From contig NZ_CP011125.1 in NCBI RefSeq assembly GCF_000737325.1, positions 3,968,001 through 4,032,000 on the forward strand: a stretch of DNA of 64,000 nucleotides. The letters are read 5' to 3'. Shown piece after piece: positions 24,553-38,317 of this stretch. The stretch's first letter is position 1. Each line of letters opens with the position of its first letter. Source of the stretch: Sandaracinus amylolyticus. Its GTDB lineage: Bacteria > Myxococcota_A > Polyangia > Polyangiales > Sandaracinaceae. The notes below the pieces were generated by a model that saw nothing but the letters and a program-made list of their open reading frames with translations, was not told the origin of the DNA and did no database searches. The translations under genes were made by a program, and so were the position numbers.

Positions 24553-25212
24553 TCAGCGCGCGAGCAGCATTCCGTCGAGGTGCAGATCGAGCAGCGCGCG
24601 CGTCGCGCGGTCGAGATCCGCGCCTTCGCGGCGCTCGAGCGAGAGCTCGACGATCTGCTTCACCGCGCCGATCACCGACCACGACACGAAGTCGACGTCG
24701 AGCACGCGCATCAGGCCGAGCGCCTGCGCGTTCTGCAGCGACACCGCGAGCCACGCGTGGAGCTGCCCGTAGAACGCCGCCAGCTTGCGATCGACCTCGT
24801 CGTCGAGCCCCGGCGCGCTGCGCAGCACGAGCCGCGTGAGCTCGGGGTGCTGGTGGAACGTCGCGAGCACGCGCCGGACGATCACGAGCAGCTGCTCGCG
24901 CAGCGGCGCCGCGTCGACGCGCGTGTCGACTCCGTCGACCGACGCGCGGATGCGCTCGAGGAGCTGATCGAGCAGCTCGTGGAAGATGGCGTTCTTGCTC
25001 TCGAAGTAGAGGTAGAACGTGCCGCGCGCGATCCCCGCGGCCTCGATGAGATCGCTGATGCGCGTCGCGTGGTAGCCCTTCTCGCTGAACACGCGGAGGC
25101 TCGCGTCGAGCACGGCACGACGGCGGGACTCGCGCATCGCCGCGGCGCGCGTGCTGCGTCCGTCGTGCGGCGGCTCGTCGTGAGCACCGTCGCGGCGCGC
25201 CGGCGCGCTCAT
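24553..25212 (-). CDS. TetR-family regulator, last gene of the lipid operon
   Basis: 219 residues. The helix-turn-helix is near residues 26-72 (RAVLDASLRVFSEKGYHATR, then AAGIARGTFYLYFESKNAIF). The C-terminal ligand domain resembles those of fatty-acid-responsive TetR proteins, but this is not specific. The start ATG at 25212 overlaps the end of the acyltransferase gene by ATGA, making it the eleventh and last gene of the operon. It probably binds the inverted repeat at 36487-36509 upstream of the operon and reports on an acyl intermediate (inference). Confidence 0.93.
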   Translation of the reverse strand: MSAPARRDGAHDEPPHDGRSTRAAAMRESRRRAVLDASLRVFSEKGYHATRISDLIEAAGIARGTFYLYFESKNAIFHELLDQLLERIRASVDGVDTRVDAAPLREQLLVIVRRVLATFHQHPELTRLVLRSAPGLDDEVDRKLAAFYGQLHAWLAVSLQNAQALGLMRVLDVDFVSWSVIGAVKQIVELSLERREGADLDRATRALLDLHLDGMLLAR

Positions 25213-26024
25213 CCGGGCCATCCCTTCGCGCGCCAGTAGTCGTCGATGTGCTTCGACATCTGCGCGTGCACGCGATCCACGAGCTGCGGCACCTCGTCGT
25301 CGCTCATGCCAGCGGTCTCGATCGGCGCATCGACGTGCACCGTGAGCTCGTGCCCCGGCCGGATCATCAGGCTCCCCTTGCGCATCAGCTCGTACGCGCC
25401 GGTCACCGTCACCGGCACCACCGGCATCTCGAGATCGCGCGCGAGGAAGAACACGCCCTTGCGGAAGGGACCGAGCCGTCCGGTCGTGGTGCGATGGCCC
25501 TCGGGGAACGTGAGGATCGCGTGCCCGTCCTTGAGCGCCTCGCGCATGTTCGCGAGCACCTCGGGCGTCTGTCCCTTCACGCCGGGCTTCACCGCGATGC
25601 CGCCGCGGATGCGCATCATCGGGCCGTAGACCGGGTACTTGAAGTGCGACTCCAGCTCGAGCCCGCGCTTGTAGTGCGGCGTCGCGTTGTGCATGAGCAC
25701 GAAGTCGAAGTGGTTCGTGTGGTTGTGCACGAAGACGCACGGGCGCTTGGGATCGACGTCGGGGTGCACGTGCGCGCGCCACTTCGATCCGGTGAGCCGG
25801 ATGACCCAGTCGGCGTACCAGCGCTGGTAGGCGAGCGAGCGATCGAGCCCGAGCGTCGCGCACGTGAGCACCATGCCGGCCGACGCGGGCACGAAGTACG
25901 TGAGGCCCGCGGCCCAGAGCGCGGCGGACTTCGCGTAGTCGGCGAGCGAGGGCGAGCGCAGCGACGCGGAAGGGACGGGCGGCACGTCGCGGGTGCCGCT
26001 CTCCTCGGTGCGCACCGCGCTCAT
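25209..26024 (-). CDS. PlsC-family lysophospholipid acyltransferase
   Basis: 271 residues. The catalytic NHX4D motif appears as NHTNHFD, and FPEGHRTTTG is the acceptor-binding block. One N-terminal hydrophobic segment (AALWAAGLTYFVPASAGMVL) places it at the membrane. It transfers an acyl chain from a CoA or ACP thioester to a glycerol-phosphate-type acceptor. It overlaps its neighbours by 4 bases on both sides (lipid kinase upstream, TetR downstream). In this operon it is the obvious step for attaching the modified acyl chain. Confidence 0.93.
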   Translation of the reverse strand: MSAVRTEESGTRDVPPVPSASLRSPSLADYAKSAALWAAGLTYFVPASAGMVLTCATLGLDRSLAYQRWYADWVIRLTGSKWRAHVHPDVDPKRPCVFVHNHTNHFDFVLMHNATPHYKRGLELESHFKYPVYGPMMRIRGGIAVKPGVKGQTPEVLANMREALKDGHAILTFPEGHRTTTGRLGPFRKGVFFLARDLEMPVVPVTVTGAYELMRKGSLMIRPGHELTVHVDAPIETAGMSDDEVPQLVDRVHAQMSKHIDDYWRAKGWPG

Positions 26025-26917
26025 GCGATCACCCGCAGCGCGCCGGGCACGACCTCGATCGAGCGGAGGCGCAGCGGCAGCACCTCGCCGTCGATCATCG
26101 TGTCGACCTCGTGATCGAGCTCGAGCTCGACGCGCTTGGCGCGCGCCTCCTCGACGCCCTCCTTCTGCACGTGGCGCCCCGCGAAGATGCTGGGGAACGC
26201 CGACACGAACGAGAGGCGCGAGCGCGGCCCGATGCGGATCACGTCGAGCATGCCGTCGGAGACCTCGGCGTTGGGCGCCATGCGCATCGTGCCCGCGGTG
26301 CAGCGGCTGTTGCAGAACGAGAGGAGGATCGCGGGGCGCGCGTCGAGCGCGCCGCCGTCGATGCGCAGCGGGAACGTCGGCGAGCGCAGGCCGATCGCGG
26401 TGCGCAGCACGGCGACGACGTAGCCCGCGGCGCCGAGGTGCTTGTAGCGGCGGTTCGTGAGCGCGCCGACGTCCGCGCTGAAGCCGACGCCGACGATGTT
26501 GATCGAGTGGAGCACGCCGCGCGCGTGATCGATGCGCAGCACGTCGCAGGGGTGCTCCTCCGCGCGGAGGATCGCGGCCATCGCGGCCTCGGCGCCCTCG
26601 ATGCCGAAGTCGCGGAGGAACGAGTTGCCGGTGCCGAGCGGCAGCATCGCGACCGTGGGGGGCTCGCCGCCTTCGCGACGCGGGAAGAGCCCGTTGAGGA
26701 TCTCGAACGTGGTGCCGTCGCCGCCGACCGCGAGGAAGTGGGTGCGCCCGCTCGCGGCGGCGTCGCGCGCGAGCGTGGTCGCGTGCCCGGGCGACTCGGT
26801 GCGCACCACGTCGATCGTCATGCCGCCGCGCCGCAGCGTCTCGAGGGCCTCGTCGGCGCGCTCGCCGCAGCGCCCACCGCCCGCCGCCGGGTTCACGATC
26901 GCCAACCACTTCGTCAC
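26021..26917 (-). CDS. Diacylglycerol/lipid kinase family protein
   Basis: 298 residues, GTG start overlapping the preceding stop. The DAGK catalytic domain begins KWLAIVNPAAGGG, has the nucleotide loop GGDGTTFEILNG and LPLGTGNSFLRDFGIEG, and the C-terminal domain with GEVLPLRLRSIEVVPG. Members phosphorylate diacylglycerol, sphingoid bases or other lipid alcohols. A lipid alcohol made by the operon's reductase is a plausible substrate (inference). Confidence 0.92.
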   Translation of the reverse strand: MTKWLAIVNPAAGGGRCGERADEALETLRRGGMTIDVVRTESPGHATTLARDAAASGRTHFLAVGGDGTTFEILNGLFPRREGGEPPTVAMLPLGTGNSFLRDFGIEGAEAAMAAILRAEEHPCDVLRIDHARGVLHSINIVGVGFSADVGALTNRRYKHLGAAGYVVAVLRTAIGLRSPTFPLRIDGGALDARPAILLSFCNSRCTAGTMRMAPNAEVSDGMLDVIRIGPRSRLSFVSAFPSIFAGRHVQKEGVEEARAKRVELELDHEVDTMIDGEVLPLRLRSIEVVPGALRVIA

Positions 26918-28653
26918 GACAGGCCTCCGATCACTGCAGCGCTCGCGCGCTCGAGCGCGACGAGCTGCTCGGGGCGCGCGCCCGCGCGCAGCTGCTCCGC
27001 GAGCGCCTCGCGCTTCACCTTCATCGACGCGGTGCGCGGGAACGACTCGCTCCACGCGAGCACCGCGTGCACGCGCTTGTGCTCGGGGAGCTTGCGGTTG
27101 CGCGCGGTGATCTCGCGCTCGGCGTCGCGCAGCGCGCCCTTGGTGCGCACCACCGCGATCAGCTGCTCCTCGGTGAGCGCGTGTCCTCCGGCGATGGCGT
27201 GGCGCGGCCACACGTAGCCCGAGGCGAACACCGCGAGCTCCTCGCACGCGACGCCCTCGAACGCCGACTCGACGTCCTCGGGGTACACGTTCTTGCCGCC
27301 CGCGGTCACGATCATGTTCTTGCTGCGACCGACGAGGTGCAGGTGCCCGCTCGCGTCGAGCCATCCGAGATCGCCGGTACGCAGCCAGCCGTCCTCGGTG
27401 ATCGTGCGCGCGGTGAGCTCGGCGTCGTTCCAGTACTCGCGCATCACGGTGCGCCCGCGGATCCACACCTCGCCGACGCCGTCGTCGCTCGGCGCGTGCA
27501 CGCGCACCTCGACGCCGTGCACCGCGCGGCCGACCGAGTCGGCGCGGAAGGGGCGCAGATCGTTGACCGTCGCGACGGTGCAGCACTCGGTGAGGCCGTA
27601 GCCGATCACCACCGGGATCCCGAGCTCGTAGAAGCGCTCGGCGCGGCGGCGATCGACGAACGCGCCGCCGCAGAAGAGCAGCTCGAGCGAGCCGCCGAGC
27701 TGCTCGTGCACGCCGCCGAGGAGCGAGCGGCTGAGCGACACGTCGGGCTTGGCGCGGGTGAGCTCCGCGTTGGCGCGCGAGATGAGCCCGAGGGCCGCGC
27801 GCTGCCACGCGGGGCGCTTGTCGATCTTCTCGTCGATCGCGCGCTCGAACGCGGCGAGCAGGAGCGGCACGAGCGCCATGTGCGTGATGCGGTGCTCGCG
27901 CATCGTCGACACGAGGAACTCGGGGCGCAGCGTGCGCTGGTGCACGACGGTCGAGCCGCACGCGAACGGACCGAGGAACCCGACCATGAAGTCGATCGCG
28001 TGGTTCGTCGGAAGCACCGAGAACGTCTTGTGCCCCGGGCGCATCGGGAAGAGGCGCATGAGCGCGCCGAGCTGCTCGAGGTACGCGTCGTGGGTGAGCA
28101 CGCAGCCCTTGGGGCGCCCGCCGGTGCCCGACGAGTAGACGATGCTCGCGGCGTCGCCGCGGGTGCGCGGCTCGACGGGCGGCGCGACGACGTCGTCGGG
28201 CAGATCCTCCCAGCGCGTCGCGGCCGTGCTCGCGTCGGGCGCCTCGGAGACCAGCACGTCGATCGCGGGCAGGTCCTTCATGCGCCGCAGGAGCGGGTGC
28301 TCGGTGATCAGCGCGCGCGCGCCCGCGTGGCGGAGGAGCGCGACCTGCTCCTCGCCCGAGAGCTTGTAGTCGAGCGGGACCATCACCGCGCCGCGCGCGA
28401 AGAGCGCGATCGCCGCGATGGGCCAGCGCGCCTGGTTGCTCATCACGATGGCGACGCGATCACCGGGACCGACGCCGCGATCCGCGAGCCAGCGCGTGAC
28501 CGGCGTGACCTCGCGGCGCACGTCGAGGTACGTGAGGCGCTTCTTCTCGGCGCGCCGATCGACCTCGATCAGCGCGGTCTCGCTCTTCCACTGCACGAGC
28601 GCGTCGTGCAGCAGCGCGCCGAGCGAGTCGTAGCCTTCGGGCGGGATCATCAT
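26914..28653 (-). CDS. AMP-dependent acyl-CoA/acyl-ACP ligase (second of two)
   Basis: 579 residues. The ANL superfamily P-loop is IVYSSGTGGRPKG, followed by YGLTECCTVATV, WLRTGDLGWLDASGHLHLVGR, the hinge motif KNMIVTAGGKNVYPEDVE and the C-terminal Lys in RTASMKVKREAL. It activates a carboxylic acid, most likely a fatty acid, as an adenylate and passes it to CoA or a carrier. The gene for a free-standing ACP lies 6 bases upstream, so loading onto that ACP is possible. The start may be ATG 28653 or 28650. Confidence 0.92.
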   Translation of the reverse strand: MMIPPEGYDSLGALLHDALVQWKSETALIEVDRRAEKKRLTYLDVRREVTPVTRWLADRGVGPGDRVAIVMSNQARWPIAAIALFARGAVMVPLDYKLSGEEQVALLRHAGARALITEHPLLRRMKDLPAIDVLVSEAPDASTAATRWEDLPDDVVAPPVEPRTRGDAASIVYSSGTGGRPKGCVLTHDAYLEQLGALMRLFPMRPGHKTFSVLPTNHAIDFMVGFLGPFACGSTVVHQRTLRPEFLVSTMREHRITHMALVPLLLAAFERAIDEKIDKRPAWQRAALGLISRANAELTRAKPDVSLSRSLLGGVHEQLGGSLELLFCGGAFVDRRRAERFYELGIPVVIGYGLTECCTVATVNDLRPFRADSVGRAVHGVEVRVHAPSDDGVGEVWIRGRTVMREYWNDAELTARTITEDGWLRTGDLGWLDASGHLHLVGRSKNMIVTAGGKNVYPEDVESAFEGVACEELAVFASGYVWPRHAIAGGHALTEEQLIAVVRTKGALRDAEREITARNRKLPEHKRVHAVLAWSESFPRTASMKVKREALAEQLRAGARPEQLVALERASAAVIGGLS

Positions 28654-28659
28654 CGCGGC

Positions 28660-28902
28660 TCAGACCCTCCGCGCGATCACGGTCGCGAGCTCTTCGAACG
28701 TGCGCACGTCCTGCACCTCGTAGTCGGGGATCTCGATGGCGAAGCGCTCCTCGAGCGCGGTGACGAGCGACATCGCCTCGACGCTGTCGATGCCGAGCGC
28801 GTCGAAGAGATCGTCGGCGGGGCGCAGCTCGCTCGCGCGCTTTCCGAAGCGCTCGGCGGCGAGGGTCATCAGGCGCGGCAGCACGTCGTTGGCGGTGCTC
28901 AT
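28660..28902 (-). CDS. Free-standing acyl carrier protein
   Basis: 80 residues, acidic, four-helix ACP. The phosphopantetheine Ser is in LGIDSVEAMSLV (GIDS motif). The start at 28902 (MSTANDVLPRLM) overlaps the crotonase stop by ATGA. It sits between the crotonase and the second AMP ligase, which makes it a likely pathway-specific carrier for the operon rather than the housekeeping AcpP. Confidence 0.94.
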   Translation of the reverse strand: MSTANDVLPRLMTLAAERFGKRASELRPADDLFDALGIDSVEAMSLVTALEERFAIEIPDYEVQDVRTFEELATVIARRV

Positions 28903-29738
28903 GCGGGGTCCTGCTGTTCGGACGAGGGAGGCGCGGGGAGGTAGGGCATCGCCGAGGTGTCGGCGTCGAAGCGCGCGAGCGCCTTCGCGACCACCGGGCC
29001 GGCGAAGAGCTCGCAGAACACGTCCTTCTCGCGGGCGAGGCGGTCCTTCGGGATCGGCTTGAGGAAAGCCTTGGCGACCTTCGTCGTCGGGCCGTCGAAG
29101 CGGCACGCCTGCTGCGCGACGCGGTGCGCGACCGAGAGGTGCTCGCCCGGCGCGACGAGCTGCGAGACGAGGCCGATCGCCTGCGCGCGCGCCGCGCCGA
29201 GGCTGCGCCCCGTCAGGAGGAGATCACGGATGATCGCGTTGCCGAGATCGCGCTCGAGGCGCGGGATTCCGCCGAAGCCGGGGATCAAGCCGAGCCGCAG
29301 CTCGGGGAAGCAGAATCGCGCGGTCTTGTCGGCGACGATCAGATCGCACGTGAGCGCGAGCTCGAACCCACCGCCGAAGCAGACGCCGTGCACGGCGGCG
29401 ATCGTCGTGATCGGCGCGGCATCGATCGCGTCGAACGCGGCGTGGATGCGATCGAGGAAGCGACGCACCTCGCGCACCCGCGCCTCGACGGGCTCGCTCG
29501 CGCGCGCGGCGTTCTCGCGATGGAGCTCGCGGAGATCGGCGCCGGCGCAGAAGCCGCGCTTCACCGCGCTCGTGATCACCATCGCGCGCACGCCCGGCGC
29601 GTGCGCGGCCTCGGCGACGCGCTCGACCTCGCTCAGCATGACGAGCCCGATCTCGTTGCAGGGCTCGCGATGGAGCCGCACCTCGAGCACGCCGCCGTGC
29701 CCGAGGTCGAACGAGAGCTGCGTTCCGTCGTAGCGCAC
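28899..29738 (-). CDS. Enoyl-CoA hydratase/isomerase (crotonase) family protein
   Basis: 279 residues, GTG start at 29738 preceded by GAGGAA. The crotonase fold shows GFCAGADLREL (oxyanion hole) and VHGVCFGGGFELALTCDLIVA, then LGLIPGFGGIPRL. The Glu in PELRLGLIPG fits one hydratase catalytic position; the other, normally in the GGGxE segment, is E of GGGFELAL. It probably hydrates or isomerises an acyl-CoA or acyl-ACP double bond. It lies between the ligase gene (17-base gap) and the ACP gene (4-base overlap). Confidence 0.92.
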   Translation of the reverse strand: MRYDGTQLSFDLGHGGVLEVRLHREPCNEIGLVMLSEVERVAEAAHAPGVRAMVITSAVKRGFCAGADLRELHRENAARASEPVEARVREVRRFLDRIHAAFDAIDAAPITTIAAVHGVCFGGGFELALTCDLIVADKTARFCFPELRLGLIPGFGGIPRLERDLGNAIIRDLLLTGRSLGAARAQAIGLVSQLVAPGEHLSVAHRVAQQACRFDGPTTKVAKAFLKPIPKDRLAREKDVFCELFAGPVVAKALARFDADTSAMPYLPAPPSSEQQDPA

Positions 29739-29755
29739 GATGTTCCTCGAAGCCG

Positions 29756-31414
29756 TCAGGCGTAGAGCGCGTCGATCTCGCGCGCGAAGTGCGCCTCGAT
29801 CTCGTGGCGCCGGAGCTTCTGGTTGGCGGTGAGCATCCCGCTCTCGATCGTGAGCGGGTCGTCGTGCACGTGGACCTTCCGGATGCGGCGGTAGTGCGGC
29901 AGCGCCTCGTTGACCTCGTCGATCGCACGATCGATCGCCGCGCGATCTCCGGTCCCCGCGAGCAGCGCGACGAGGTACGGGCGACCGTGCCCGATCACGA
30001 CCGCGTGCGACGCGCTGGGCACGCGCTCCATGATCATCTGCTCGATCGGCTCGGGCGCGACGTTGTGCCCCGAGCTCGGCACGAGGATGTTCTTCACTCG
30101 CCCGATGATCCGCAGCAGACCGCGAGTGTCGATCGTCGCCTGATCGCCGGTGCGGAACCAGCCGTCGTCGGTGAACGCATCGCGCGTCGCGGTGTCGCGG
30201 CGGAAGTAGCCGCGGAACACGTTGGGCCCGCGGATCTGCAGCTCGCCGTGATCGCCGAGCCGCACGTCGCAGCCCGCGATCGGATGACCGACGCGCCCGG
30301 GGACGACTCCGTCGACGCGATCGATCGACACGATCGCGGTGGTCTCGGTGAGCCCGTAGACCTGGTAGACCGGGATGCCGACGAGGTCCGAGAACCACGC
30401 CTGGGTCTCCTCGGCGAGCGGCGCGGAGCCGCATATCAGCCCGGTGATCTGGTGGCCGATCTGCTCGCGGATCTTCGGGAAGAGCGCGCTCTTCGCCGCG
30501 GCGAGCAGCGCGCGATCGCGCTTGCGAGCGATGCCCGCGCGCTCGCGACGGAACGCCTCGATGGCGCGCTCGTAGAGCATGCGCACCGGGAGCGGGCGCT
30601 CGGCGAGCTTCTTCTCGACGCCGGCGCGCACGCGCTCGAGCAGCGCGGGCACGTTGAGGAAGTACTCGGGCGCCGCGACGCGCAGCTCGCGCGCGAGGTC
30701 GTCGAGGCTCGTCGACAGGAACAAGCCGTTCGCGCGGAAGAGGCACGCCCAGAGCACCATGCGCGAGCCCGCGAAGCAGAAGGGCAGGTAGTGGAAGACG
30801 CGATCGCGCCCGCCGCTCGTGCCCGTCAGCTCGCGCAGCTTCGCGTCGAGCACCGGCAGCATGTGCTCGACGTTCGCGACGCTCGTCATCACGCCCTTGG
30901 GCTCGCCGCTGGAGCCCGACGTGTAGATGATCGTGACGACGTCGCTCGCCTCGACGCGCCGCGCGGGCTCGAGCGCGCTCGGCGGGTGGCCTGCGAAGAG
31001 CGCGTCGAGCTGGATCATCGGCGCAGGCGGCGCGTGCGCGGCGATCGCGTCCGCGAGCGGCGCGCCGTCGACGATCACGACGCGCGGATCGCAGTCGCGC
31101 ATCATCGCGACGAGCTCGCTCGCGGCCTGGCGCGCGTACATCGGCACGCACGTCGCGCCCTCGGCGAGGATCGCGACGTCGCACGCGACCCAGCGCGCCG
31201 AGTTCGGCGCGACGAGCACCACGCGATCACCCGGCTTCACACCGGCTGCGCGCAGCGCGTGGCGCGCCTGCTCGATCATCTCGCGCAGGCGTCCGCCGCG
31301 CGTCGGCACGAGGCGCTCCTTGCCCGGCGCGAGCCCGGTGCAGAACACCTCGGTGACGAACGCGCGATCGGGATGCTCGCTCAGGTTCGCGAGGAAGACG
31401 TCCACGAAGCTCAT
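29756..31414 (-). CDS. Long-chain acyl-CoA synthetase-like AMP ligase (first of two)
   Basis: 552 residues. P-loop TIIYTSGSSGEPKG, then VYQVYGLTETTAIVSI, GWFRTGDQATIDTRGLLRIIGR, hinge KNILVPSSGHNVAPEPIE and C-terminal LTANQKLRR. The overall layout is that of FACL/FadD15-type long-chain ligases. It makes the acyl-AMP and acyl thioester that feed the crotonase and reductases. The start at 31414 overlaps the pyruvyl-transferase stop by ATGA. Two distinct ligases in one operon imply two acid substrates or separate CoA and ACP loading. Confidence 0.93.
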   Translation of the reverse strand: MSFVDVFLANLSEHPDRAFVTEVFCTGLAPGKERLVPTRGGRLREMIEQARHALRAAGVKPGDRVVLVAPNSARWVACDVAILAEGATCVPMYARQAASELVAMMRDCDPRVVIVDGAPLADAIAAHAPPAPMIQLDALFAGHPPSALEPARRVEASDVVTIIYTSGSSGEPKGVMTSVANVEHMLPVLDAKLRELTGTSGGRDRVFHYLPFCFAGSRMVLWACLFRANGLFLSTSLDDLARELRVAAPEYFLNVPALLERVRAGVEKKLAERPLPVRMLYERAIEAFRRERAGIARKRDRALLAAAKSALFPKIREQIGHQITGLICGSAPLAEETQAWFSDLVGIPVYQVYGLTETTAIVSIDRVDGVVPGRVGHPIAGCDVRLGDHGELQIRGPNVFRGYFRRDTATRDAFTDDGWFRTGDQATIDTRGLLRIIGRVKNILVPSSGHNVAPEPIEQMIMERVPSASHAVVIGHGRPYLVALLAGTGDRAAIDRAIDEVNEALPHYRRIRKVHVHDDPLTIESGMLTANQKLRRHEIEAHFAREIDALYA

Positions 31415-32964
31415 GCCTGGAGCTCTCCCAGCTCGGCCGCGCGCCAGCGCTCGAGGATCAGCCGCTGCCGCGCCGCGAGCGGCGGCAGGTGTGCGATCGG
31501 ATCGCCGTCGCCGCCGGTCTCGCTCGATCCGAGGTGCCTCGCGAACGGGAAGCGCGGGTGGTGCGCGCGGACGTGATCGACGAGGTGCACGCCCATCTCG
31601 CCCTGGCGCACGAGGTTGCGCGCGACGCTGCGCTCGATCGCGACGCGCGACGCGTCCGGGTCCGACCACGCGCGGTGCATCGCCTCGAAGAGCCGCTCGT
31701 CGAGCGCCTCGTCGTCGACGTTGAGCAGCAGATCGCGCTGGCCGCGATCGCGCATGAGGTTGCGGATGCGCTCGTCCATCGTGACGCCCACGCTCGGCAC
31801 CGCGGCCGGCATCGAGCACACGAGCGCGTGGTAGCGCGACGAGACGATGAGCGACGCGCGCCGCAGCACCGCGACGATCTCGCGGTACTCGTGCTCGTCG
31901 GAGACGAACATCGCGGGCTTGCCGCGGCGCGCGAGCTTCTCCTGCAGCGCCTCGCACGCTCTGCGATCGAGCGCCTCCATCCCGACGATCACCGGGAACA
32001 CGTCGTGCGCGCGCCGGAAGTCGTCGAGCGCGCCCGCGAGGCCCGCGATGTAGCGATCGAAGCGCGCGTCGACGTCGGGCCCGCTCTCGTGGAAGTAGAT
32101 CGACTCGAAGTGGCTCTTCTCGTACGCGCCGGTCAGCCCGTGCACCGCGGCGCGCAGCGGATCCGGCTTCACCGGCCACCAGAACGGATGGATCGGGCAC
32201 ACCACGACGACGGGCTTCTTCTCGTCCCATCCCGCGCGCCGCAGCAGCTTCTCCGCGAGCTCGTCGGGCGCGCCTTCGTAGGTCCACGCGGTGTCGGTGC
32301 CGACGCGCGTCGGCACGCCGAGCCGCTCGAGGATCGCGCTCGACTCGTCGTTGCGCGTGAGCACCAGCGCGCGCTCCCCGAGGGTGCGGCGGATCATGTC
32401 CTCGAGCGACGCGTCCATCGCGCCCGCCTCGCCGCCGTAGCCGACCGCGATCTTCTCCTCCGCGACCGCGAGGCCGAGCGCGCCCGCCATCATCGTCGTC
32501 AGCGCGCTCGCGAACTTGCTCTTGAACATCGAGCCTTCGCACGCGATCACGCCGTGCTGCGCGCGCACCTGATCGAAGAGGAACTTCGGGAAGATCTGCG
32601 GGACGTGGACCTGCTTGACCGTCTTGAAGTACCCGCGGGTCTTGCTGGGATCGATCGTGAGGATCGAGAGGTCGCAGTGCTCGTCGCCGAAGAGGTGGCG
32701 GAACTGCCGCACCATCTCCTCGACGCGCACGTCGGCGCCGGTGTTGCGCGTGCCGACGTAGCCCGCGAAGAGCAGCTTGATCGGCTCGCCCGGACGCCAG
32801 CGCGGCGACGGATCGGTCTCGTGCCGCTCGCGCGCGGTCTCGACGAGACCTTCCATCGTCAGCTGCAGCAGGCGATCGGGATCGAGCGCCTCCTTCGTGC
32901 GCTTCGCCGCCGTCTTCGCGGCCTTGCCCGCGAGCTGCGCGAGGAGCTTGCCGGTCAGGCCCAT
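31411..32964 (-). CDS. Polysaccharide pyruvyl transferase family protein
   Basis: 517 residues. The family (CsaB, WcaK, PssM) transfers pyruvyl from phosphoenolpyruvate to sugars. Visible motifs: FAGYVGTRNTGADVRVEEMV at the N-terminus (donor-site glycine loop), GYGGEAGAMD, and SSRYHALVCSMPAAVPSVGV near the C-terminus, the family's most conserved block. The N-terminal 50 residues are basic and helical. Its presence inside a lipid operon is unusual and suggests a pyruvylated head group or sugar (inference). It overlaps the SDR gene by 10 bases and the ligase gene by 4. Confidence 0.88.
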   Translation of the reverse strand: MGLTGKLLAQLAGKAAKTAAKRTKEALDPDRLLQLTMEGLVETARERHETDPSPRWRPGEPIKLLFAGYVGTRNTGADVRVEEMVRQFRHLFGDEHCDLSILTIDPSKTRGYFKTVKQVHVPQIFPKFLFDQVRAQHGVIACEGSMFKSKFASALTTMMAGALGLAVAEEKIAVGYGGEAGAMDASLEDMIRRTLGERALVLTRNDESSAILERLGVPTRVGTDTAWTYEGAPDELAEKLLRRAGWDEKKPVVVVCPIHPFWWPVKPDPLRAAVHGLTGAYEKSHFESIYFHESGPDVDARFDRYIAGLAGALDDFRRAHDVFPVIVGMEALDRRACEALQEKLARRGKPAMFVSDEHEYREIVAVLRRASLIVSSRYHALVCSMPAAVPSVGVTMDERIRNLMRDRGQRDLLLNVDDEALDERLFEAMHRAWSDPDASRVAIERSVARNLVRQGEMGVHLVDHVRAHHPRFPFARHLGSSETGGDGDPIAHLPPLAARQRLILERWRAAELGELQA

Positions 32965-34121
32965 GCGCCCGCTCCGTTCTTCGTGCCGTGCTCGACGCTC
33001 GGCGCCGCAGGCAACGCGACGTACGGGAACGTGTAGTCGTGCTCCTTCGCCCAGCGATAGAGCCCCGCGCAGTACTCGGTGAACGGCACCGGCGTCTCGC
33101 CGAGCTCCTCGCACACGCGATCGTTCACGAAGACCGTGTCGAACGTGATGTACGGCATGAACACCTTGAACAGCGAGCCGACGAGCGACGCCTGCGAGCG
33201 AGGCAGCCCCGCCATGCCGTTCATGAGCGACGCGAACGGCTTCTCGAGGCGCGGCGCGAAGCGCGCGGGACGACGCCCGGCGATCTTCTCGGTGAGCACC
33301 GCGTCGATCTCGGCCGCGCGCTTCGACGCGCGACCGCTCGAGAGGTGATAGCAGTCGTAGCGCGGCGACTCCTTCACGTGGATGTCGGCGATCGCGCGGC
33401 CGACGTAGTCGGCGTTCACGATGTCGACCCGCGCGTCGGCGCGCATCGGCACGAAGGGCGCGTCGATCAGCAGGCACGTCGCGCGCACCATGTCGAACTG
33501 CGTGGTGCGCGGATGGCGCGAGTCGCCCATCACGATCGACGGGCGGAAGAACGTCTTGGGCACGTCGGGAAGGAGCTCGCGGACCATGTGCTCGCAGAAC
33601 TTCTTCGTGCGCCCGTAGGGGTCGTAGTCGCTGCGGTTCCAGTCGATCGACGCGTCCTCGGTCACGTCCTCGCGATCACGGTGGCCGCACACCGCGACCG
33701 TCGACACGTGGCTGAACCGGCGCAGCCCACCGCGCGCGCTCGCGACGTCGCGCGCGAGCTGGATCACGTTGAGCGTGCCGCGCAGGTTCGAGTTGAGGCA
33801 CGCCTTCTCGCTCTTCCGATTGAGCGAGGCCGCGATGTGCAGCACCGAGTCGACCGATTGGGTCACGCGGCGGCGCTCGTCGCCGGTGATGCCGAGCCCC
33901 GGCATCGTGAGGTCGCCCGACACGAAGTCGATGCGCTCGAGCGCGGCGCGGAAGCTCGCCGCGTCCATGTGGAGCTGGAGGCCGTTCCACAGCTTCGCGA
34001 CCGACTCGTCGCGCGACTTGCCGCGCACCATGAGCAGCAGCCGATCGTCGTGCTGCTCGAGCAGGCGCGTCACGACGTACGAGCCGAGATAGCCCGTGCC
34101 GCCCGTTACGAAGATCGTCAT
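32955..34121 (-). CDS. Extended SDR / thioester-reductase-like protein
   Basis: 388 residues. Rossmann glycine motif TGGTGYLGSYV at the N-terminus. SDR catalytic Tyr and Lys in PYGRTKKFCEH, and STVAVCG supplies the catalytic Ser/Thr. It resembles NAD_binding_4 proteins (thioester and fatty-acyl reductases) and NAD-dependent epimerases. The C-terminal 130 residues are less typical (HDYTFPYVALPAAPS). It may reduce an acyl thioester or a keto group. It overlaps both neighbours. Confidence 0.85.
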   Translation of the reverse strand: MTIFVTGGTGYLGSYVVTRLLEQHDDRLLLMVRGKSRDESVAKLWNGLQLHMDAASFRAALERIDFVSGDLTMPGLGITGDERRRVTQSVDSVLHIAASLNRKSEKACLNSNLRGTLNVIQLARDVASARGGLRRFSHVSTVAVCGHRDREDVTEDASIDWNRSDYDPYGRTKKFCEHMVRELLPDVPKTFFRPSIVMGDSRHPRTTQFDMVRATCLLIDAPFVPMRADARVDIVNADYVGRAIADIHVKESPRYDCYHLSSGRASKRAAEIDAVLTEKIAGRRPARFAPRLEKPFASLMNGMAGLPRSQASLVGSLFKVFMPYITFDTVFVNDRVCEELGETPVPFTEYCAGLYRWAKEHDYTFPYVALPAAPSVEHGTKNGAGAWA

Positions 34122-35800
34122 TCCGCTTCCTCTCCCATCGCGACCATCGCGGACGGCGCGCCCACCGGGCGCACCGCTTCGCGCGCCACGAGCTCGCGCA
34201 GCGCGGGCGTGATCACGCACGCCGGATCTTCGGGCGCGCGCTCGCCCTTCAAGAGCGGCAGCGACCACGTGTCGAGCCCGGGGATCTGCACCTCGAGCCA
34301 GTAGCGACGCCAGTCGATCGTGTGCACGTCGAAGCCGAAGAGCGCGCGATCCTCGTCGCCCAACATCGCGCTCGCTTCGCGCACCGTGTCGGTGCGGAAC
34401 ACGAGATCGTCGTCCCACACGAACGGCTGATAGACGCGCAGCATCTGCTCGACCTGGCCGATCGTGCGCGACGTGTTGCCCAGCGACTTCGCGGCGCGCT
34501 GCGCGCGCTTCGCGAGGCCCTCGCCGAACCGCTCGCGCAGCGACGAGGGCAGGTAGTGCTCGGGATCGAACGAGACGAGCGCGTCGCGCAGCGCGCGCGT
34601 CGCCTTGCGCGCGGTGGGCAGCACGAGGTCGTCGCTCGCCGAGCGCGACGCGAGCACGCTCTCGAGGTGCGCGAGCACGAAGCGCTCGAAGGGATCGTCG
34701 CTCTTCGCGTACTGGCGCCGGCGCGCGAGCGTCGAGAGATCGAGCGCGCGACCGAGCGTGAGCGGGTTGTGATCCGACGACGCGAGCTGCCACACGCCGC
34801 GCACCCCGCGCCCGGCGCGCTCACGCAGCGCGTGGACGAGCGCGAGCGTCGTGCCGCGCGCGACGCTGTCGACGGGCACCACGTCGAAGTGGTGCTTCGG
34901 CGCGAACGGCATGCGGCGGTGCGGCGTCCCCACGAGCCACACCAGCGGGCCCGAGGTGTTCATGCCCTCGTTCCATCCGGAGAACGGCGTCTCGTGCGCG
35001 CACTCGACGATCGAGGGGCGCACGATCGTGATCGCGACACTGCTGCTCGGATCATCGGTCTCGCGGATCGCGAGCAGGTGCTCGGAGAGGCCCTTCGTGT
35101 ACGTGTAGAGGTTCGGCCAGCCGAGCGCGAGCGCGCGGCGCGTGCCCGCGTCGATGCGCTCGCGCCGCGCCGCCGCGGGATCGTCCTTGTCGAGGCGCGC
35201 GTCGATCGCCGCGCACACCGAGTCGATCGCGAGCAGCTCGCCCTCGGGATCGAAGCGCGTCCCGTTCGGCGCGATGCCCGCGACGAGCTCCTCGGGCACC
35301 ACGCGCGAGCCCTGACCCGCGACGAAGCACGTGCTCATGTGCACGAGCCGCTTGCCGCGGGTGCGCGCCGCGAGATCCGCCGCGTGCTGCGCGCCGCGCA
35401 CGTTCACCGCGACGCCGTCGCGCGGGTCGGGCACGAAGTCGGTGAGCCCCGCGATGTGCACGATCGCGTCGAGGCGCGGCAGGAGATCCTCGAGCACACG
35501 CTCGTCGATGCCGAGCATCGGACGGCGCGCGTCGCCCGAGACGACCTCGATGCGCGACGCGAGGAACGCGCCGAAGCCCTCGCCGTGACGCTCCCGCAGC
35601 GGGCGGAAGCACGGCGAGCGCTCGAAGAGGCGCTGCACGCGCGACGCCGCGCTCTGGCCGCGCTTGCCACGCGCGAGCAGCACGATGCGTCCGATCTCGG
35701 GCGCGCGCTCGAGCAGGAACGCGACCCACACCTTCGCGACGAAGCCGGTCACGCCGGTGACCAGCACCTGCTTGCCGCGGAGCTCCTCACGAATGCTCAT
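34118..35800 (-). CDS. Fatty acyl-CoA reductase-like protein (NAD_binding_4)
   Basis: 560 residues. N-terminal reductase domain: LVTGVTGFVAKVWVAFLLE (glycine motif with Ala at the last Gly), VHIAGLTDF, NVRGAQHAADLA, MSTCFVAG, and the catalytic LYTYTKGLSEHLL (YxxxK). This matches alcohol-forming fatty acyl reductases of the male-sterility type. The C-terminal 200 residues (ARRRQYAKSDDPFERFVLAH, then DWRRYWLEVQIPG) are outside the common fold. It probably reduces fatty acyl thioesters to alcohols or aldehydes with NADPH. ATGA overlaps on both sides. Confidence 0.88.
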   Translation of the reverse strand: MSIREELRGKQVLVTGVTGFVAKVWVAFLLERAPEIGRIVLLARGKRGQSAASRVQRLFERSPCFRPLRERHGEGFGAFLASRIEVVSGDARRPMLGIDERVLEDLLPRLDAIVHIAGLTDFVPDPRDGVAVNVRGAQHAADLAARTRGKRLVHMSTCFVAGQGSRVVPEELVAGIAPNGTRFDPEGELLAIDSVCAAIDARLDKDDPAAARRERIDAGTRRALALGWPNLYTYTKGLSEHLLAIRETDDPSSSVAITIVRPSIVECAHETPFSGWNEGMNTSGPLVWLVGTPHRRMPFAPKHHFDVVPVDSVARGTTLALVHALRERAGRGVRGVWQLASSDHNPLTLGRALDLSTLARRRQYAKSDDPFERFVLAHLESVLASRSASDDLVLPTARKATRALRDALVSFDPEHYLPSSLRERFGEGLAKRAQRAAKSLGNTSRTIGQVEQMLRVYQPFVWDDDLVFRTDTVREASAMLGDEDRALFGFDVHTIDWRRYWLEVQIPGLDTWSLPLLKGERAPEDPACVITPALRELVAREAVRPVGAPSAMVAMGEEAE

Positions 35801-36465
35801 CGCGTCTCCTCTTCGCGCACGCTGCGCACCACGGGCCAGTCGAGATCGCGCGCGACGCGCGCCAGCTCGCGATCGGGATCGACCGCGCAGGGAAGGCCGA
35901 CGAGCGAGAGCAGCACGCCGTCGCTGCGCGACGTGCCGTACCCGCACGAGCGCGCGAGATCGATCTCGTGACGCGCCGCGAGCTCGCGCAGCCGCTTGGG
36001 ATCGATCTCGGGGCCGACGACGGGCTCGCGCAGCACACCGGTCGCCTCGGCGCCGTCCATCTCGAGCGCGTTCGCGATCACGAGCTCGAACCCGAGCGCG
36101 TCCGCGACCGGCTGGACGATCGCGTCGATCGACTCGCTGATCAGCACGAGCACGCGGCCGCTCGCGCGCGCCTCGTCGACGAGCCGCCGCGCGTCGGGCT
36201 TGATCGACGGCAGCACGCGATCGCGCGCGTAGTCGTCGCCGAGCACGACGAGGCGGTCCTCGCTGAAGCCGCGCAGGGTCGACCACGCGACGTGGCGAGT
36301 GATCGCGGGATCGCGCTGGGCCATCGCCGCCGAGAGCGCGACGCCGCCGATGCCGAAGAGCCGCCGACGCACGCTGGGCGCGTTCGACGCGAGCCACAAC
36401 GCGCCGGCCCACGCCGGGGAGTCCGAGAGCGCACCCTCGAGCCGGAAGAACGCTGCCGTTCGCAC
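35797..36465 (-). CDS. HAD-IB-like protein with degraded catalytic motifs
   Basis: 222 residues from GTG 36465. The fold and spacing match HAD-IB phosphatases related to phosphoserine phosphatase: AAFFRLEGAL occupies motif I, VLISESIDAIVQPVADALGF motif II, and CGYGTSRSDGVLLSLVGLP motif IV. Motif I should be DxDxT; here the nucleophile Asp is Arg, the second Asp is Glu and the Thr is Ala. The first Asp of the GDSxxD motif is Thr. It is therefore probably not a phosphatase but a pseudoenzyme with a binding or scaffold role. First gene of the operon; the frame is open upstream to 37044, but that part is repeat DNA. Confidence 0.85.
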   Translation of the reverse strand: MRTAAFFRLEGALSDSPAWAGALWLASNAPSVRRRLFGIGGVALSAAMAQRDPAITRHVAWSTLRGFSEDRLVVLGDDYARDRVLPSIKPDARRLVDEARASGRVLVLISESIDAIVQPVADALGFELVIANALEMDGAEATGVLREPVVGPEIDPKRLRELAARHEIDLARSCGYGTSRSDGVLLSLVGLPCAVDPDRELARVARDLDWPVVRSVREEETR

Positions 36466-36486: not shown

Positions 36487-36509
36487 AGACTGACGTGTCA
36501 GTACAGTCT
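36487..36509. promoter_or_regulatory. Nested inverted repeat, candidate TetR operator of the lipid operon
   Basis: ACTGAC and GTCAGT separated by GT (36489-36502) form a tight palindrome. An outer pair AGACTG (36487-36492) and CAGTCT (36504-36509) surrounds it. It lies 22 bases upstream of the first gene (GTG 36465), in the only AT-rich patch of the region (TAGCAAAACTAG at 36477-36488). This is where the operon promoter should be. The size and symmetry suit a TetR dimer, and the operon ends with a TetR gene. The regulator-site pairing is inferred. Confidence 0.55.
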
Positions 36510-36516
36510 TTCTGCC

Positions 36517-36720
36517 GTCTGTCTTCGGGGACCCTCGGACCGTTCTTTTTCGCCGCGCGGCGAGCTCCGGGGAACCCTCGAACGTGGCTCGGTCGAGCGA
36601 TGAGCTCGGAGGAACCCTCGGAGGGTCGTTCGGTCGAGCGGTGAGCTCCGCGGAACCGTCGGACGGTTCTTCGGTCGAGCGGTGAGCTCTTGGGAACCTC
36701 GGAGGGTCGCTTCCGTTCCC
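36517..36720. repeat. About 41-bp tandem repeats with partly palindromic core, 5 degenerate units
   Basis: Units beginning GAGCTC start at 36562, 36602, 36643 and 36684 (periods 40, 41, 41), preceded by a degenerate fifth copy from about 36517. The typical unit is GAGCTC-N4-GGAACCCTCGGAGGGTCG followed by TTCGGTCGAGCGGT. Two neighbouring units carry perfect hairpin cores differing by a mirrored change: ACCCTC-G-GAGGGT (36614-36626) and AACCGTC-G-GACGGTT (36654-36668). The stretch between this array and 36847 is degenerate related sequence with no gene. Confidence 0.8.
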
Positions 36721-36846
36721 GTGGCGGAACGATCGAATGCTTGGTTGGTTCCTCCGTTCCAGGAACGCAACGAAAACGAACGTCGGTCGTCGCATCGTTC
36801 CCGTCCTGCAACGTGAGGCCCCGTCGAAGGTTCGATCGTTGCGCGC

Positions 36847-37003
36847 GTGGAACGATCGAGCCCTCGCTGGCTTCCTCGACGTTGCGGGCGCGTCGCGCGA
36901 ACCCTCGATGGCTTCCTCGACGTCGCGGGCGCATCGCGCGAACCCTCGATGGGTCCCTCCACGTTGCGGGCGCATCGCGCGAACCCTCGAGGCCTCCTCC
37001 CGC
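36847..37003. repeat. 41-bp tandem repeats, 3 full units plus one partial
   Basis: Units starting GTTGCGGGCGC or GTCGCGGGCGC lie at 36881, 36922 and 36963 (period 41). Each holds CGCGCGAACCCTCGA, after a partial copy from 36847. The CGAACCCTCG element is shared with the array at 36517-36720, so both may descend from one repeat family. The array lies between the lipid operon and the divergent flavoprotein gene and contains no credible gene on either strand. Confidence 0.8.
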
Positions 37004-37057: not shown

Positions 37058-38317
37058 ATGGGACGACCTCAGCGCATCGCGATCCTCGGCGCGGGCCCCG
37101 GCGGCACCGCGACCGCCCTCGAGCTGATCGCGGCGGGCGTCGATCCCGGCGATCTCGTGCTGATCGACAAGGCGCGCTTTCCGCGCCCGAAGCTGTGCGG
37201 CGGCGGGATCACGGTGCGCGGCACCGAGTGGATCGCGCGGGTGCTCGGCGCGCGGCCCGAGGGCGGCGGGACCACGAACGGCCTCGAGTTCCGCTGCGAG
37301 CTCGGCGCCTTCGAGGTGCGCGAGCGCGGGCCGCAGTGGGTGTTCGATCGCGGCGAGCTCGATCTCGCGCTGCTCGAGGCGTGTCGCGCGCGCGGCGTCG
37401 AGGTGCGCGAGGAGACGAACGTGACGGCGCTCGAGCCCGCGCCGTCGGGCTGGCGGGTGCGCAGCGGGAGCACGACCGAGACGTTCGAGTGGGTCGTCGG
37501 CGCGGATGGCGCGAACGGCTTGTCGCGCCGCGCGAGCGGGCTGCGCGGCGGGATCACCGGGCGCCTCGTCGAGGCGGTGTTCGAGCCGGTGTCGGCGGAC
37601 ACGAAGCCGGGCACGCTGATCTTCGACTTCGATCCGATCCTCGACGGCATCCCCGGGTACGCGTGGGTCTTCCCGTTCCCCGATCCGGCGCGGCGCGACG
37701 GGCTCTTCAAGATCGGCGTGATGGACGGGCGTGGAGTGGTCGCGGGCGACGTGCTGCGGCGCTGGACCGAGGACTACGCGGCGCGCCTCGGGTACCGGCT
37801 CGTCGACTCGAAGATCCACGGCTGGCCCGAGCGCTACTTCGACGCGGGCGTGCAGGGGCATCGCCCCGGGCTCGTGCTGGTGGGCGAGGCGCTCGGGATC
37901 GACGCGCTGCTCGGCGAGGGGATCGCGCCGTCGCTCGAGATCGCGAGCTACGCCGCGTCGCGCCTGCGCCGCGCGCTCGACGATCGCAGCGCGACGATCG
38001 CGGGGTACGAGACGGGGTTCCTCGCGACCGCCGAGGGCCGCAACCTGTGGTTCCAGGCGCGCCTCGCCGATCGGCTGTACGGGCGGCACCCGCATCGCTG
38101 GCTGCGCGTGCTCTTCGGGATGCCGTACCTCCGCGCGCTCGCGGGCAGCGGGCGCGAGGCGTACGGGCGGCTCGCGCAGCACGTGCCCGCGCTGTGCGCG
38201 CGCTACGTGCTCGAGATCGCGCGGCGAGGCGCGCCCAGCGCGGCGCCGATCACGCGCGCCGCGCGACCGGCTGGGACGTCGCGCACCGCGTTCGCAGAAT
38301 CGCGCGACGTGCAGTAG
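37058..38317 (+). CDS. Geranylgeranyl-reductase-family FAD oxidoreductase
   Basis: 419 residues. FAD-binding GAGPGG at 11-16. The geranylgeranyl reductase signature region PRPKLCGGGI near 46-55 supplies the conserved Cys and Gly. Further motifs are VVGADGANGLSRR (second FAD motif) and LVGEALGIDALLGEGIAPSLE. The family reduces double bonds of isoprenoid chains in quinones, chlorophyll or archaeal-type lipids, and related members are halogenases or hydroxylases. The N-terminal signature and the lack of a membrane segment favour the GGR type. It is divergent from the lipid operon, so isoprenoid lipid saturation is a possible link. Confidence 0.88.
   Translation: MGRPQRIAILGAGPGGTATALELIAAGVDPGDLVLIDKARFPRPKLCGGGITVRGTEWIARVLGARPEGGGTTNGLEFRCELGAFEVRERGPQWVFDRGELDLALLEACRARGVEVREETNVTALEPAPSGWRVRSGSTTETFEWVVGADGANGLSRRASGLRGGITGRLVEAVFEPVSADTKPGTLIFDFDPILDGIPGYAWVFPFPDPARRDGLFKIGVMDGRGVVAGDVLRRWTEDYAARLGYRLVDSKIHGWPERYFDAGVQGHRPGLVLVGEALGIDALLGEGIAPSLEIASYAASRLRRALDDRSATIAGYETGFLATAEGRNLWFQARLADRLYGRHPHRWLRVLFGMPYLRALAGSGREAYGRLAQHVPALCARYVLEIARRGAPSAAPITRAARPAGTSRTAFAESRDVQ

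Follow-up and report, generated by a model that had tools for sequence, protein, structure and literature searches.

The window, a 64,000-nucleotide stretch of the Sandaracinus amylolyticus genome (10,327,335 bases in a single contig), carries eleven open reading frames, designated A to K, that are arranged head to tail along the minus strand between positions 24553 and 36465, with A starting at 36465 and K ending at 24553. Eight of the ten gene junctions overlap, seven of them by 4 bp (ATGA or GTGA) and the C/D junction by 10 bp; E and F are separated by 17 bp, and G and H by 6 bp. This agrees with the original prediction, made from the sequence alone, which had described eleven minus-strand genes joined mostly by 4-bp overlaps. 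The gene order is HAD, fatty acyl reductase (FAR), SDR, pyruvyl-transferase-family protein (PPT), AMP ligase 1, crotonase, ACP, AMP ligase 2, YegS-type kinase, PlsC and TetR, and the features are as follows.

36489..36502, minus strand: candidate TetR operator, ACTGACACGTCAGT, some 24 bp in front of the start codon of A, the first gene
35797..36465, minus strand: A, HAD-IB-fold pseudo-phosphatase, ElbB homologue, 222 aa (PF12710, E 8e-18; motif I R8-L-E10-G)
34118..35800, minus strand: B, FAR (NAD_binding_4 + Sterile), homologue of the ElbD FAR domain, 560 aa (PF07993, E 1e-47)
32955..34121, minus strand: C, extended SDR of the thioester-reductase/male-sterility type, 388 aa (PF07993, E 7e-41)
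31411..32964, minus strand: D, PS_pyruv_trans-family GT-B protein (PPT), 517 aa (PF04230, 47 bits, cut-off 25.3)
29756..31414, minus strand: E, AMP-forming ligase 1, 552 aa (PF00501, E 3e-61; PF23562)
28899..29738, minus strand: F, crotonase/enoyl-CoA hydratase family, 279 aa (PF00378, E 2e-37)
28660..28902, minus strand: G, acyl carrier protein, 80 aa (PF00550, E 2e-13; GIDSVEA)
26914..28653, minus strand: H, AMP-forming ligase 2, homologue of the ElbD ACS domain, 579 aa (PF00501, E 2e-70)
26021..26917, minus strand: I, YegS/DgkB-type lipid kinase, 298 aa (PF00781, PF19279; TIGR00147, 133 bits, above cut-off)
25209..26024, minus strand: J, PlsC-type acyltransferase, homologue of the ElbD AT domain, 271 aa (PF01553, E 2e-22; NHX4D and FPEG motifs)
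24553..25212, minus strand: K, TetR-family regulator, last gene, 219 aa (PF00440, E 4e-17)

A repeat of the CGAGGGTTCGCGCGA type occurs in several near-identical copies in the intergenic region upstream of the operon (36520-37000), and a divergent gene for an FAD-dependent oxidoreductase (FAD_binding_3, E 6e-10) lies at 37058-38317 on the plus strand.

Pfam backs all eleven of the family assignments made previously, with the exception that the 'HAD-like' protein A has lost its catalytic aspartates and is catalytically degenerate, which had gone unnoticed. As had also been predicted, there is no ketosynthase: no Pfam family of that kind is matched in any of the ten biosynthetic proteins A to J. 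Among the other enzymes, the SDR contains YxxxK and scores 112 bits with TIGR01746, below its cut-off, and the crotonase keeps both catalytic Glu positions in conserved columns (GGGxEL, FPELRLG). The IDS of the ACP is invariant across its aligned relatives, and GGDGT is conserved in the kinase.

The catalytic DxD motif I of HAD phosphatases is absent from gene A, and Arg8, Glu10 and Gly11 are invariant in 14 of 14 aligned HADs. The motif I Arg is present in every HAD listed from an operon with a PPT, whereas ElbB-type HADs have D-x-D-G; variant forms of the motif occur at two loci (FRLEH at L067 and RVDG at L117). An AF2 model of A (pLDDT 93.9) matches HAD phosphatases, with 3fvv as the best PDB match. 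In 20 loci, nearly all of them acidobacterial, the HAD and FAR are encoded in one uninterrupted frame. We infer that the pseudo-HAD probably acts as a structural or regulatory partner of the FAR.

A search of the phylum Myxococcota with the FAR (B) gave two kinds of protein, stand-alone FARs and FARs contained within frames of about 1300–2260 aa. The loci fetched for 14 of the stand-alone FARs, from 14 Myxococcota genomes, have the same operon in the same order, though incomplete where a contig or the retrieved sequence stops, and 4-bp overlaps are again frequent. A PPT-profile scan of the contigs of 84,980 genomes, from which prevalence outside the Myxococcota is taken, gave 285 relatives. 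The best 80 of the 285 comprise Sandaracinaceae, Nannocystis, Paraliomyxa, other Myxococcota, Acidobacteriota and single MAGs with other labels. Most of these 80 loci preserve the gene order over the length that their contig covers. The recurrence of the order in most of the 80 loci and in the 14 Myxococcota genomes, two sets that overlap in part, is far beyond chance; conservation in other myxobacteria had been suggested as a check, and it extends to the Acidobacteriota. The PPT was found in 34 of 284 sampled Myxococcota genomes, and the closest named relative at the window locus in the FAR tree is an uncultured Sandaracinus. Literature searches for this gene combination among open-licence papers returned nothing relevant, in keeping with the earlier statement that it matches no named pathway.

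The operon is not invariant. Ligase 1 is present in 46 of 68 loci and missing in the other 22, and some related loci carry insertions. In place of ligase 1, an amidohydrolase is encoded at locus L048 (11385-12794), and at L046 (7111-9599) one is accompanied by an alanine-racemase-like/D-serine-dehydratase-like gene. Several source labels merit caution: two MAGs with the operon (L089, L123) are titled Klebsiella pneumoniae, titles that look wrong, and the L123 locus is apparently the same as one in the Myxococcota genome G044; an Acidimicrobiia MAG (L114) groups with acidobacteria in the FAR tree and may be misbinned.

The 14-base candidate operator, which the original prediction had not picked up, is the sole match to ACTGACNNGTCAGT in the 10.33-Mb genome, and the chance expectation is 0.04 per window with one mismatch. 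The core of the operator, CTGACNNGTCAG, precedes the HAD gene in every one of the 24 distinct loci with TetR, and it is missing from all 12 complete loci without TetR; six more loci with the core end, or were cut, before the expected TetR position. We propose that it is a putative binding site for the operon's own TetR. Because the operator co-varies with TetR and is the single site in the genome, one TetR-controlled promoter in front of the operon appears to be the best reading. The original view of a coupled, apparently single-promoter operon for a specialised lipid, with a private ACP and a conserved order, is supported.

In Myxococcus xanthus, the elb operon comprises elbA (SDR), elbB (HAD), elbC ('unknown function'), elbD (FAR-ACS-ACP-AT) and elbE (SDR), and ether lipids require ElbD (PMC9131029). 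The original prediction had set the window operon apart from elb for want of a 'PKS-like' multifunctional protein. ElbD is indeed multifunctional, but 'PKS-like' is inexact for a FAR-ACS-ACP-acyltransferase (PMC9131029), and the separation does not stand, as each ElbD domain has a gene of its own here and the FAR and ligase 2 group with ElbD in trees. We compared the operon with three fused loci of the form HAD – ElbC-like – FAR/AMP/ACP/PlsC – SDR, which stand in for the M. xanthus sequence and are called elb by their architecture. A is 33–34% identical to ElbB (E 1e-33 to 7e-39), B and H are 29–33% identical to ElbD, and J is 26–27% identical to the ElbD AT domains (E 5e-11 to 2e-13). The ACP (G) has a weak match to one ElbD (E 7e-4), and the SDR (C) matches ElbE-like proteins weakly (E 1e-3 to 3e-7). 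Judged by homology, the separate genes B and H are the counterparts of the FAR and ACS domains of ElbD, and G and J probably those of its ACP and AT domains.

Trees were built for the FARs and the ligases. The split FARs form one clade (SH-aLRT 98) that is joined to the ElbD FARs (SH-aLRT 99), the latter not being recovered as a single clade; FAR proteins of about 840–960 aa, which we take from their size to be of the MXAN_1674-1676 type, fall outside the ElbD/split clade. A further arrangement unlike ElbD is found in a 1572-aa frame (L150, 1936-6651) with a FAR match at residues 687-961. The two ligases of the operon and the ElbD ligases each form one clade (AMP2 100, AMP1 100, ElbD 98); AMP2 joins ElbD with SH-aLRT 86, weaker than the FAR grouping, and AMP1 stands apart from both.

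The two forms seldom share a genome. Of 141 genomes sampled in the FAR search and counted by hand, 19 have the split form, 42 the fused form and one (G030, loci L043 and L060) both, as compared to 5.7 expected (P(X≤1) = 0.007, in a test that ignores shared ancestry). No ElbD-like FAR protein was found elsewhere in the window genome, or in 12 further split-operon genomes, and S. amylolyticus was scored as lacking a VEPE/AEPE cluster in a survey (PMC12766979). A Lar_N protein is absent among the eleven operon proteins by Pfam, and an ElbC query gave no match in the 80 fetched PPT loci. The ElbC-like protein of fused elb loci (L056, 4814-6409; L060, 12747-14351) is LarA-like (Lar_N, PF09861, E 6e-37) and matches the nickel-pincer LarA-like structure 9q2u (E 2e-33). 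The operon is a real, widely conserved and apparently undescribed variant of ElbD-based lipid synthesis.

The membership of D in PF04230 is clear from its score and from conserved PEP-site Arg and His residues. R204, R377, H379 and R399 are invariant in 81 distinct sequences and align with PEP-site motifs of CsaB-like proteins; the correspondence to CsaB was drawn by motif via these proteins. In Paenibacillus alvei CsaB, mutagenesis showed R148, H308 and K328 to be critical to PEP binding, and R306 is a predicted contact (PMC10435577). The known enzymes of the family form ketals on sugars and work on lipid-linked saccharides (PMC6801904). An AF2 model of D (pLDDT 87.9) has a GT-B fold, and VIA-align placed UDP-GlcNAc 2-epimerases and glycosyltransferases first, with Pvg1p absent among the matches listed; the PPT profile matched no PDB sequence at E ≤ 1. 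In two loci (L108 and L113) the PPT and ligase 1 are encoded in one frame. A second pyruvyl transferase, closer to CsaB, is also encoded in the window genome (G000:C1:2303825-2304754, L163; 180 bits, below cut-off).

We favor, with moderate confidence, the interpretation that the operon is dedicated to synthesis of an ether-type glycerolipid from one regulated promoter, using a split version of the ElbD machinery. This is suggested by the domain-by-domain homology to ElbD and ElbB together with the FAR and ligase groupings (99 and 86), by the near-exclusive distribution of split and fused forms and the requirement for ElbD in M. xanthus ether lipid synthesis, by the HAD–FAR and PPT–ligase 1 fusions and a gene order conserved over phyla, and by the co-variation of TetR with an operator at a single genomic site. 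Against it, identity to ElbD is 29–33% for FAR and AMP2 and 26–27% for PlsC, the ligase grouping is only 86, ElbC lacks a counterpart, the SDR is only weakly ElbE-like, one genome has both systems, and the count of split and fused genomes takes no account of phylogeny. From the protein families, we infer that ligase 2 (H) would load a fatty acid onto the private ACP (G) and that the FAR (B), helped by the pseudo-HAD (A), would reduce the acyl chain to a fatty alcohol. This alcohol would be joined to a C3 unit to give an alkylglycerol, which the kinase (I) would phosphorylate and PlsC (J) would acylate to an ether-type phospholipid precursor. TetR (K) would repress until released by a lipid intermediate or a stress signal. 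A search for the CarF desaturase gave no match in the window genome, and none in the control genomes either.

A more detailed, though rather doubtful, version of the ether-lipid interpretation is that the lipid backbone derives from PEP and not from glycerol phosphate: the PPT would move the enolpyruvyl group of PEP to the fatty alcohol to give a 2-alkoxyacrylate, ligase 1 would activate its carboxylate, the crotonase would hydrate the alkoxyacryloyl thioester to a 2-O-alkylglyceryl thioester, and the SDR would reduce this to 2-O-alkylglycerol for phosphorylation by the kinase and acylation by PlsC. Every biosynthetic gene is then given a step, consistent with the invariant PEP-site positions, the PPT–ligase 1 frames, the retained crotonase Glu residues, the thioester-reductase-like SDR and, by Pfam, the absence of sugar-polymer genes from the operon. 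We know of no natural route in which a pyruvyl-transferase-family enzyme makes an ether bond from PEP and a fatty alcohol; the scheme is hypothetical, 22 of the 68 loci lack ligase 1, and the epimerases that head the structural neighbors of the PPT mean that the fold alone leaves the donor unfixed. The ketals formed on sugars by characterized PF04230 enzymes also speak against it. Another reading is an elb-like ether lipid with a pyruvylated head group, in which the PPT would be an ordinary ketal pyruvyltransferase whose acceptor is a diol or sugar of the lipid, and ligase 1 would supply a second acyl chain. The family membership of D and the lipid-linked saccharide substrates of known PPTs are in line with such a head group, but we consider it unlikely, given that the operon has no glycosyltransferase besides the GT-B-fold PPT itself and that the crotonase and SDR are left without clear roles.

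It is also conceivable, if rather unlikely, that the ElbD-related enzymes make a specialised lipid of a non-ether type, such as a fatty-alcohol ester or a modified acyl chain. FAR, ligase, ACP and acyltransferase would be enough to make esters, the product does not follow from homology, and ElbD carriers without detected ether lipids are reported (PMC11868695); however, the near-exclusive distribution with ElbD counts against a non-ether lipid, and the YegS-type lipid kinase points to a glycerolipid. Crotonases and acyl ligases are known from both housekeeping fatty-acid degradation and DSF-type signaling, but either function is highly improbable here: thiolase and acyl-CoA dehydrogenase were not found among the eleven proteins, an RpfF-type model is absent among the best 25 NCBIfam matches listed, and the operon has an ACP of its own as well as reductases, a kinase, PlsC and TetR. 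We rejected the beta-oxidation and DSF readings on this gene content.

Bacterial ether lipids include some from acidobacteria that serve as climate proxies, and the known gene markers (Ger, ElbD, Agps) leave some producers unexplained. A widespread split-domain operon may escape ElbD or BGC screens, and it offers a new marker and a testable enzyme set, whose members, being separate proteins, should lend themselves to assay more readily than multidomain ElbD.

Three known systems bear comparison. The ketal pyruvyltransferases CsaB, WcfO and Pvg1p share with D the PF04230 family, the PEP-site Arg/His positions and a GT-B-type fold, but the operon has no polysaccharide context, D scores far below the CsaB cut-off, and the D group has invariant GYxGxRNTGAD and CEGSM motifs. 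The MXAN_1674-1676 type (AGPS and FAR-acyltransferase) has a FAR and an acyltransferase in common with the operon, but its AGPS is not in the operon. Among the closest is the elb operon of Myxococcus (elbA-E; VEPE/AEPE, MIBiG BGC0000871), which likewise has an upstream HAD, a FAR and acyl ligase of shared origin, an ACP, a PlsC-type AT and a nearby SDR, and which also occurs in both Myxococcota and Acidobacteriota. The operon is elb-like in part but is not an elb cluster, since three tested features fail: ElbD is one polypeptide and its parts are here four genes, the D-x-D-G of the ElbB HAD is R-x-E-G, and the LarA-like ElbC has no counterpart. Relative to elb, the operon adds the PPT, ligase 1, the crotonase, the lipid kinase, TetR and its candidate operator.
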